Positions 2,251-4,115 of a stretch of DNA of 22,822 bases are shown piece after piece. Position 1 is the stretch's first letter. The number at the start of each line of letters is the position of its first letter. The position numbers and the translations under genes are program-made. The stretch lies in IMG/VR virus record IMGVR_UViG_3300024433_000059, positions 1 to 22,822 of that record; one strand, 5' to 3'. Below the pieces are notes generated by a model. The model was given only the letters and a program-made list of their open reading frames with translations, ran no database searches and was not told the DNA's origin. Origin of the DNA: a virus.

Positions 2251-2311
2251 AATCACCCTCCTTGGATTGTTTGGTAGCGCTATCGATAATTGGAGATGTT
2301 ACATACATGCT

Positions 2312-2393
2312 CTATGATAGGGAGAATAGGTGCATCTATGTTGTGTTAATAACTATGATAGCGCTTGTGTGAATACTACACATATTATCATAG
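2312..2393. promoter_or_regulatory. CTATGATAG operator-like sites (three)
   Basis: CTATGATAG occurs at 2312-2320 and 2353-2361 (41 bp apart, about four helical turns). It occurs inverted with one mismatch at 2385-2393, inside the promoter spacer. The second site is fused to GATAGCGCT (2357-2365), whose reverse complement is at 2276-2284. An inverted pair CATCTATG (2333-2340) and CATAGATG (2389-2396) adds further symmetry. Binding protein unknown; the repressor, Rep and the 65-aa HTH protein are candidates. Confidence 0.5.
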
Positions 2394-2401
2394 ATGGTCA
2401 A
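2373..2401 (-). promoter_or_regulatory. Promoter for the 96-aa/rusA operon
   Basis: On the minus strand TTGACC (2396-2401) and TAGTAT (2373-2378) are separated by 17 bp. A CTATGATAG-like site (2385-2393) lies in the spacer and two exact copies lie downstream (2353-2361 and 2312-2320), so the promoter is probably controlled by a protein binding that 9-mer. Confidence 0.55.
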
Positions 2402-2418
2402 TTCTTTTATGGTTTAAC

Positions 2419-2460
2419 ATTGTGAAGTTGTAATTCACAATATGTGAAGTAAAGCCTCAC
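2419..2460. repeat. TGTGAA iteron-like cluster
   Basis: A perfect inverted repeat ATTGTGAA (2419-2426) / TTCACAAT (2434-2441) is followed by a second direct TGTGAAGT (2443-2450, 22 bp from the first at 2421-2428) and a looser inverted CTCACA further on. Spacing near two helical turns suggests a protein-binding array, possibly for Rep. Confidence 0.5.
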
Positions 2461-2462
2461 AA

Positions 2463-2502
2463 AGCGAAAAATCCTATTATTTAAAAAATTACTTTTTTCG
2501 CT
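2463..2502. other. AT-rich inverted repeat in origin region
   Basis: AGCGAAAAA (2463-2471) pairs with TTTTTCGCT (2494-2502) around a 22-nt loop that is almost all A and T. It could be a DNA-unwinding element of the origin. It could instead act as a rightward terminator-like hairpin, although no T-run follows the stem. Confidence 0.4.
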
Positions 2503-2541
2503 CGATTATTCTTTACCTTCCTGAATATGCAATAAGCGTTT

Positions 2542-2561
2542 TAAATAACAGTAAATAACAG
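2542..2561. repeat. Tandem 10-mer TAAATAACAG x2
   Basis: Two perfect back-to-back copies, one helical turn each, 34 bp from the DnaA box on the side away from rep. AT-rich tandem units at this place suit Rep binding or duplex opening. Confidence 0.7.
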
Positions 2562-2595
2562 GACAGTTAATGGCTTTACCTCAGGACACTTGTTC

Positions 2596-2604
2596 TGTGG
2601 ATAA
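2596..2604 (-). promoter_or_regulatory. DnaA box (TTATCCACA)
   Basis: The minus strand reads exactly TTATCCACA, the high-affinity E. coli DnaA box. It lies 138 bp beyond the rep stop and reads in the same direction as rep, as in R1 oriR. Confidence 0.8.
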
Positions 2605-2710
2605 GTTTATAACGTGGATTTGTGCGCTGATATGAGTGGGTTTTTCTAATGACTGTGTTATTATTTGTTTATAATATGAACTTTAATATGAATCGCACAT
2701 AGTTATACGA

Positions 2711-2722
2711 CCGTGAACACGG
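2711..2722. other. Short palindrome after the rep gene
   Basis: CCGTG-AA-CACGG, a perfect 5-bp-arm inverted repeat 20 bp beyond the rep stop. No T-run follows, so an intrinsic terminator is not supported. It may be part of the spacer between rep and the origin. Confidence 0.4.
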
Positions 2723-2742
2723 AACGGGATAATAGGTAGGGT

Positions 2743-3489: not shown

Positions 3490-3512
3490 AATTTCTCTCG
3501 TTAATGTCCCTA

Positions 3513-3557
3513 TCAACGATTAGTGTATGGCGAAAATCTTAAGTTGACTTTGGCCAT
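3513..3557 (-). CDS. Possible 14-aa rep leader peptide
   Basis: ATG at 3555-3557 opens a short frame, MAKVNLRFSPYTNR, whose TGA (3513-3515) overlaps the TTG of the extended rep frame (TTGA) and lies about two dozen bases before the preferred rep ATG. In IncFII plasmids a short leader peptide (Tap) must be translated for repA to be expressed, and the antisense RNA acts by blocking that step. Position and overlap fit, but the ribosome site here is weak (TGAG, six bases upstream) and a 14-codon frame can occur by chance. Confidence 0.35.
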   Translation of the reverse strand: MAKVNLRFSPYTNR

Positions 3558-3572
3558 ATGCTCAGGTATTAT
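3544..3572 (+). promoter_or_regulatory. Strong promoter for antisense RNA, divergent to rep
   Basis: TTGACT (3544-3549), a 17-bp spacer and TATTAT (3567-3572) match the sigma70 consensus at ten of twelve positions. It points away from rep, and no protein frame follows before the terminator at 3658-3684. A 15-bp palindrome (3565-3579) covers the -10 and the start. Confidence 0.7.
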
Positions 3573-3579
3573 TAATACC
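3565..3579. promoter_or_regulatory. Palindrome GGTATTA-T-TAATACC
   Basis: Perfect 7-bp arms around a single base, overlapping the -10 and start of the rightward RNA promoter and sitting just upstream of the leader-peptide ATG on the other strand. It is a good operator candidate for copy control. Binding protein unknown. Confidence 0.55.
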
Positions 3580-3684
3580 GTTATCGTTAATTAGAAACCA
3601 CAAATTCCGTTAATGTAACAAACCTAGTTATTTAACTTACATTCTATAACTAAAACCAAAGGGCCTCTAATACGGGCCCTTTTT
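3579..3684 (+). ncRNA. Putative CopA-like antisense RNA (~105 nt)
   Basis: A short non-coding transcript is predicted from the promoter at 3544-3572 to the terminator at 3658-3684. It has no credible ORF. It can form an internal stem AATGTAA (3612-3618) / TTACATT (3637-3643) with an 18-nt loop, then the GC-rich terminator hairpin. It is transcribed against the upstream leader of rep if rep mRNA begins at or before 3684, for instance as a continuation of the repressor transcript. Size, two-hairpin shape, place between regulator and rep, and opposite polarity all match CopA/IncFII antisense RNAs, which bind the rep leader and set copy number. No sequence identity to CopA is claimed. Confidence 0.5.
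3658..3684 (+). terminator. Rho-independent terminator
   Basis: AAAGGGCC (3658-3665), a nine-base loop and GGCCCTTT (3675-3682) lead into TTTTTATTA on the plus strand, a textbook terminator for the rightward RNA. In the minus direction the hairpin is followed by the poorer TTTGGTTTT, so termination of the repressor transcript may be partial, leaving some read-through into rep. Confidence 0.85.
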
Positions 3685-3693
3685 ATTAGCATA

Positions 3694-3996
3694 CTATTTA
3701 TCCTCTAAACATTCAATAAGGCCATTTGCCATAACTGATAATGACCTTGCGTAAGCTAAGATCTTATCTTTATCTTTGAAGTCATTTTCACCATCTCCAG
3801 TAAAATGGTTAAGCATATGTGGAAAGTTGTTTTTTATATACTCTTCAACTCGCCCCAGAAACTTGATGTATTCAGCTCTGCTTGAATTGTTTCTTCCGTT
3901 CTCATAAGTGTTGTATGTCCCTCTCGAAACTCCCAATCTTTTTGCAAACTCGTGCTGGCTCAATTCAGCGTAATTTCTTACTAATCTTAAATCCAT
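3694..3996 (-). CDS. Cro/CI-type (XRE) transcriptional repressor, short form
   Basis: A 100-aa protein with one XRE helix-turn-helix at residues 12-35 (LSQHEFAKRLGVSRGTYNTY and the following ENGR). A helical C-terminal part follows (residues 41-100) that probably dimerises. There is no peptidase S24/LexA-like domain, so it cannot be inactivated by RecA-stimulated self-cleavage as lambda CI is. The ATG at 3994-3996 is chosen because GAGG sits nine bases upstream; a longer frame from 4044 has no such site and covers the promoter and operator. It probably represses both its own promoter (4027-4056) and the divergent early promoter (4116-4144). It occupies the position of copB relative to rep in IncFII plasmids. 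Confidence 0.85.
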   Translation of the reverse strand: MDLRLVRNYAELSQHEFAKRLGVSRGTYNTYENGRNNSSRAEYIKFLGRVEEYIKNNFPHMLNHFTGDGENDFKDKDKILAYARSLSVMANGLIECLEDK

Positions 3997-4017
3997 TGTC
4001 TGTTTCCTCTTTATTAC

Positions 4018-4070
4018 TATAGATACATAATAATCTAAATTCATCTAACTTATCAACCTATGTATCTATA
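4018..4070. promoter_or_regulatory. Paired repressor operators (12-bp inverted repeat)
   Basis: TATAGATACATA (4018-4029) and its exact reverse complement TATGTATCTATA (4059-4070) are 41 bp centre to centre, about four helical turns. They straddle the repressor's own promoter: one arm overlaps the -10 and the other abuts the -35. This suggests co-operative binding and autoregulation. Confidence 0.65.
4027..4056 (-). promoter_or_regulatory. Repressor promoter
   Basis: On the minus strand TTGATA (4051-4056), an 18-bp spacer and TATTAT (4027-4032). The transcript would start near 4020, just inside the left operator arm, and reach the repressor ATG about 25 bases later. Confidence 0.55.
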
Positions 4071-4115
4071 TTAACTGCAACTATGACAAATGTAAAAGTT
4101 TTTATTAAATACTTG

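Follow-up and report, generated by a model that had tools for sequence, protein, structure and literature searches.

The closest described counterparts of the locus analysed here are plasmid replicons of the RepA type. In plasmid R1 the order of genes is copB-copA-tap-repA, and origins of the R1/IncFII type are found downstream of rep, together with a DnaA box. The Inc RNA of the IncI plasmid ColIb-P9 is an established antisense RNA, and both this and RNA I of the IncL/M plasmids (pMU604/pCTX-M3) are directed against the leader-peptide part of a RepA gene, as is proposed below for the present RNA. Among phages, lambda has its OOP RNA located between a regulator and the replication initiator. 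RNA I of IncM is about 77 nt long and acts on the repB leader (PMC8125031). A further arrangement, the REx-C module, has been described in the Pseudomonas RepJ, RepA-PFP, RepA-RA2 and RepA-Pa plasmid replicons (PMC5304414). It has three leader stem-loops, stem-loop 1 being the putative terminator of an antisense RNA whose promoter is inside stem-loop 3, and a short leader ORF that is apparently coupled to rep; incompatibility was mapped to the antisense stem-loop (PMC5304414).

Here, we describe a comparable arrangement in a linear IMG/VR virus record, IMGVR_UViG_3300024433_000059, the 22,822 bases of which are referred to as the window. Judged from its sequence, the + strand of 3544-3687 probably encodes a constitutive antisense RNA of about 105 nt, which would control the copy number of a phage-borne theta replicon of the RepA type (Table 1). 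The parts are in the same order as in REx-C, although no sequence similarity was detected between the two control regions, and the window module is AT-rich, has a shorter leader ORF and is carried by a phage. As in R1 with its CopA RNA (IncFII), the regulator gene comes first, followed by the antisense RNA, the leader ORF and rep, and a probable origin with a DnaA box lies downstream; the differences are that the regulator in the window is an HTH protein beside a divergent phage early operon, and that the RNA has no Rfam CopA match. Compared to RNA I of IncL/M and Inc RNA of IncI, the predicted RNA is longer (about 105 as against about 70-77 nt), has extra stem-loops, and is without the UUGGCG/CGCCAA pseudoknot pair. 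A first-pass annotation of this DNA had proposed an undescribed copy-number antisense RNA. The functional part of this proposal is supported by the comparison with plasmid RepA relatives, with ColIb-P9 as a control, and with REx-C (PMC5304414). The word undescribed holds for the RNA of the window, which is new, but not for copy-control antisense RNA as a kind of element, which is already known.

Table 1. Positions of the features of the replication module in the window.
Feature	Position	Strand	Evidence or remark
Candidate replication origin	2257..2742		AT-rich non-coding DNA downstream of rep; DnaA box
Rep, winged-helix plasmid-type replication initiator, 248 aa	2743..3489	-	HTH_36 E 8e-5; PHROG replication initiation 2e-5
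Rep leader stem-loop 3	3506..3598	-	-29.9 kcal/mol, z -4.54; surrounds antisense promoter and leader ORF
Candidate leader-peptide ORF MAKVNLRFSPYTNR	3513..3557	-	14 codons; weak ribosome-binding site
Antisense RNA promoter TTGACT-17-TATTAT	3544..3572	+	10/12 consensus matches
Perfect 15-bp palindrome GGTATTATTAATACC	3565..3579		covers -10 and start site; unique in window
Predicted antisense RNA, about 103-110 nt	about 3579..3684-3688	+	start from promoter, end from terminator
Stem-loop SL1 of antisense RNA	3580..3619	+	MFE and centroid structure
Stem-loop SL2 (TAGTTAT/ATAACTA) of antisense RNA	3625..3652	+	MFE and centroid structure
Intrinsic terminator AAAGGGCC-TCTAATACG-GGCCCTTT then TTATT	3658..3687	+	3/20000 gap shuffles
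HTH repressor (HTH_3/HTH_31)	3694..4044	-	Pfam HTH_31 1.5e-8; co-oriented with rep, upstream of rep

The replication gene and its setting

The window carries P22-like genes for head closure (Hc3), a DNA ejection protein and a collar-type tail fibre, and a contig that overlaps it over 1136 bp at 100% identity (L038) contributes the terminase, a large portal protein and the coat. The - strand has, in order, the HTH repressor, a gap of 204 bp, Rep, and AT-rich non-coding DNA. On the + strand, divergent from the repressor, are two small genes, a Sak4-like ATPase and SSB. Rep sits behind the repressor and is therefore outside the divergent early operon, and the repressor itself occupies the place of copB in R1 and of repC in the IncL/M plasmids. 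A DNA search gave phage matches that are confined to the Sak4 gene. Between the repressor and the divergent early operon, at 4014-4074, there is a near-perfect inverted repeat, TTACTATAGATACATA...TATGTATCTATATTAA (94%, arms 29 nt apart), with an exact TAGATACATA present on both arms; this is likely to represent the operators of the repressor.

A tblastn search of plasmids with Rep matched an Aquicella plasmid (1e-10), the RepA of plasmid Drgb7 (8e-4) and a Legionella plasmid (5e-3), and a profile made from four Rep sequences reached viral contigs as well as contigs of Legionella, Pseudomonas and Marinobacter. Three of the Legionella proteins found with the profile (L053, L042 and L043) match the NCBIfam family RepA_IncFII_LM at 3e-8 to 7e-7, which is below the curated cut-off. 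The window Rep itself has no convincing NCBIfam match and none to RepA_IncFII_LM directly, and its alignment to ColIb RepZ by hhalign is weak (probability 1.4%, E 0.037). Its identity to the relatives found with the profile is only 19-29%, and membership of the RepA family is therefore by a chain of similarity and not direct. The phage collection contained no close relative of Rep. Searches of viral and genome contigs for close relatives of both Rep and the repressor likewise yielded none, and Rep was undetectable in the contigs that share tail genes with the window (L028-L037). The viral contigs that encode related Reps lack a detectable terminase (PF03354), and these were therefore not counted as phage evidence. 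AlphaFold gave a pLDDT of 39 from the single sequence and of 73 for a model based on an alignment, with an HTH/wing region. The alignment-based model has winged-helix matches in the PDB, none of them at E<=0.001, and it matches phage helix-turn-helix proteins in a viral library.

The AT-rich DNA downstream of rep is the probable origin, as suggested by its place and by a perfect DnaA box, TTATCCACA, at 2604-2596 on the - strand. Iterons were considered and set aside: the CGTTAAT repeats are short, and no direct-repeat array stands out. Near to the DnaA box, at 2374-2465, there is a cluster of inverted and direct repeats resembling TGTGAAG/CTTCACA, which are possible Rep-binding sites of the origin.

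Antisense promoter, terminator and predicted RNA

The near-consensus promoter described in the first-pass annotation (TTGACT, 17 bp, TATTAT) is exact, with the -35 at 3544-3549 and the -10 at 3567-3572. It is located 54-83 nt upstream of the rep ATG and points away from rep. By itself it is unremarkable and constitutes weak evidence: there are 13 promoter-like sites in the 2.8-kb region compared to 10.0 +/- 3.1 in shuffles, and a promoter of the same quality (10/12) arises in 7% of shuffled gaps (1450/20000).

The terminator provides a stronger signal. The same annotation ended the gene-free stretch in a GC-rich hairpin with a T-run, and this is real, the hairpin occupying 3658-3682, with the stem AAAGGGCC/GGCCCTTT, a loop of 9 nt, and a + strand T-run of TTTTTATT, counted from the last paired Ts of the hairpin. 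A stock terminator scanner overlooked it because of the 9-nt loop. The distance of 86 bp that had been given from start to terminator is loose, since the hairpin begins about 79 nt and ends about 103 nt past the start. Such a terminator occurs in 3, and a promoter plus terminator pair in 1, of 20000 shuffles of the 216-bp gap, and both the terminator and the pair are the only ones of such strength in the window (both strands, all 22,822 bases); the thresholds were chosen with the feature already seen, and these shuffle and uniqueness rates are therefore optimistic.

In the main rival explanation there is no antisense RNA. The hairpin would be a bidirectional terminator serving to stop the repressor transcript ahead of rep, and the promoter would have arisen by chance, the DNA being rich in AT. 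The hairpin does satisfy the terminator test on the - strand also, about 12 bp past the repressor stop, and the frequency of 10/12 sites in shuffled gaps, together with the lack of enrichment of promoter-like sites in the region, fits with chance. However, the + strand has the better T-run (TTTTTATT as against TTTGGTTTT), no + strand gene requires a terminator at this place, and related rep genes are preceded by the antisense pair about 30 times as often as background windows (see below). On balance we consider the explanation rather unlikely.

An antisense RNA made from this promoter and terminator would have the length given in Table 1, consistent with the approximately 105 nt originally suggested. 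The + strand RNA has an MFE of -23.6 kcal/mol and a z of -4.87 (-2.45 without the terminator), and is predicted to form two weak stem-loops, SL1 and SL2, followed by the terminator. An additional stem at 3612-3643, which had been proposed previously, is not part of the MFE structure, SL1 and SL2 being preferred. Over 3570-3656 the complementary - strand shows no such folding advantage over shuffles (z 0.33). The stretch has no ORF of at least 50 aa on either strand, in agreement with the claim that nothing in it codes for protein. No Rfam covariance model, including those for CopA and other plasmid copy-control RNAs, matched at the gathering score, the only sub-threshold hit being STnc100, with 18 bits compared to the 47 required. 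RNA sequence patterns, both exact and gapped, found nothing in IMG/VR, and no close homologue of the RNA/rep region was found in the searches made.

On the sense strand, the complement of the terminator 3658-3687 is stem-loop 1 of the rep leader. The candidate leader ORF starts 68 nt and ends 23 nt upstream of the rep ATG, and its stop codon, TGA, shares bases with a TTG (3516) that is in frame with rep. In the sense direction, this ORF begins about 10 nt past the antisense -10. The corresponding ORF starts at -77 in ColIb-P9 and at -74 to -101 in Pseudomonas-type relatives; in these relatives the antisense -10 and the start codon of the leader ORF overlap. Both of the hexamers UUGGCG and CGCCAA are absent from the window leader. 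A pseudoknot between the loop of stem-loop 1 and the leader (a 5-nt AUUAG/CUAAU match) was set aside, as being by eye probably within chance.

The palindrome that covers the -10 could possibly be an operator, or merely the inner hairpin of leader stem-loop 3, to the fold of which it belongs. Another explanation is that the conserved elements are DNA sites rather than RNA, namely operators for Rep or for the repressor formed by the palindrome and the CGTTAAT repeats. The perfection of the palindrome would fit this, as would an inverted repeat at 3512-3528/3575-3591. Against it, both the palindrome and the inverted repeat are part of stem-loop 3, whose z of -4.54 is for the sense RNA strand, and the terminator is left unexplained. 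We consider this explanation very improbable.

No strong rep promoter was found in the gap, the best - strand candidates having only 8/12 matches. One of these, TTGAAT-17-TATGCT, is inside the end of the repressor gene, and a message made from it would begin at stem-loop 1. Alternatively, the rep message may be produced by read-through from the repressor promoter, as for copB-repA in R1. Any overlap of the antisense RNA with the rep transcript depends on where the rep promoter lies.

The same layout in distant relatives

One fixed detector was used for all of 19 relatives, with 1551 random windows from the same loci as background. Among the 19, which are not independent of one another, 9 have an antisense promoter and terminator in the 330 bp that precede rep, the positives being partly related to each other, and the same pair was found on the sense strand in only one; the background rate is 23/1551 windows (1.5%). 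The positives are from Legionella, the Pseudomonas/Marinobacter/Stutzerimonas group, Aeromonas and Paraburkholderia, and a detectable antisense pair is missing in several of the 19. The hairpin of the window is symmetric, and for this reason both strands of the window score positive. The DNA ahead of the related rep genes repeatedly has a GC-rich hairpin in the antisense orientation, in many cases accompanied by an antisense promoter, and the predicted RNAs in the relatives are about 50-92 nt long, most of them about 70-92 nt. The signals and the folds are seen in the window, and the layout recurs in relatives. In the control, ColIb-P9, the antisense promoter TTGAAT-17-TATACT is 54-83 nt upstream of the repZ start, which is identical to the position in the window.

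Three Legionella RepA relatives (L053, at about 3671-3697, L056 and L040) have an antisense hairpin upstream of rep, and these are apparently copy-control RNAs of the IncL/M-like type. The Legionella hairpins have CGCCAA or CGTCAA in the loop, followed by a long T-run. The loop in L053 is CGCCAA, which is complementary to UUGGCG, the target loop of IncI and IncL/M, and UUGGCG itself is present in one Legionella relative, where it lies in the sense loop of the hairpin. The RepA-Pa plasmid pP27494_2 is a tblastn match of a Legionella relative.

A further comparison is provided by the Pseudomonas phage-plasmid pHN2 (NZ_CP085886, L072), which encodes ParA and a related RepA alongside a large set of phage genes. 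It has a GC-rich antisense-oriented hairpin upstream of RepA, and no antisense promoter at the threshold used. It differs from the window phage in being contractile-tailed (sheath, baseplate) rather than P22-like, and in having an integrase. In its 82-kb record a unit of about 41 kb is apparently repeated, which looks like a dimer or an assembly duplication.

Proposed mechanism and phage lifestyle

We infer that the RNA is transcribed, that it pairs with the rep message, and that the leader ORF is translationally coupled to rep. The rep message would run on the - strand, first through stem-loops 1-3, then through the short leader ORF and on into rep. Since the two RNAs would come from one stretch of DNA, each from a different strand, the antisense RNA has full complementarity to stem-loops 1 and 2, and most probably it would pair with the rep leader through its loops. 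Such pairing would keep the leader ORF from being translated, and with it Rep, to which the ORF would be coupled. As gene copies increase in number, antisense RNA would rise and Rep would fall, so that the frequency of initiation would vary inversely with copy number.

The locus also resembles lambda in having a phage antisense RNA between a regulator and a replication initiator gene, and an OOP-like RNA would occupy just this relative place. On this explanation the RNA would serve lytic replication only, tuning the regulator or replication, and there would be no plasmid stage. In its favour, cells that contain plasmids with a portion of the lambda replication region are reported to inhibit related phages (PMC3349717). 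However, OOP overlaps the 3' end of cII, while the T-run of the antisense terminator ends at about 3687, short of the repressor stop codon (3694-3696), so that there is no OOP-like overlap. In addition, lambda O is not a plasmid RepA, whereas the window Rep is of plasmid type and is outside the divergent early operon. An OOP-like role is accordingly very improbable.

A copy-number brake of this kind is found in many plasmids, and its probable presence here suggests that the phage is able to exist in its host as a plasmid. A plasmid-type rep together with P22-like head and tail genes suggests that this may be such a phage-plasmid, the replicon presumably being used by a plasmid prophage. The genes scanned in this incomplete genome record include none that could be recognised as a partition or an integrase gene. 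The eight phage-plasmid groups that have been tabulated are all sipho- or myophages (PMC11652158), and a P22-like phage-plasmid, if true, would be unusual, since this morphology is absent from them.

The first-pass annotation had also suggested that the RNA might act in trans to exclude related phages. Exclusion, or incompatibility, would follow from how such antisense RNAs work, and if the RNA does act in trans then plasmid incompatibility would double as superinfection exclusion. A more speculative proposal, which we think doubtful, is that the position of CopB in an IncFII-like replicon is held by the immunity repressor of a plasmid-living P22-like phage. A unit of about 500 bp would then couple lysogeny to copy control, with the antisense RNA being a second, RNA-based immunity against the replication of related phages.

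With the proposed RNA, copy control by antisense RNA would be known for RepA replicons of one more lineage, in which the control region yields nothing in sequence searches; further members could therefore be sought by their layout (antisense promoter, hairpin, leader ORF, rep, DnaA box). It is worth adding that near the left end of the record, at 118-308, there are tandem 12/18-bp units, the 18-mer being present at 10.6 copies, and the frames of this array encode repeats of the D-P-D-Q or R-P-R-P type.
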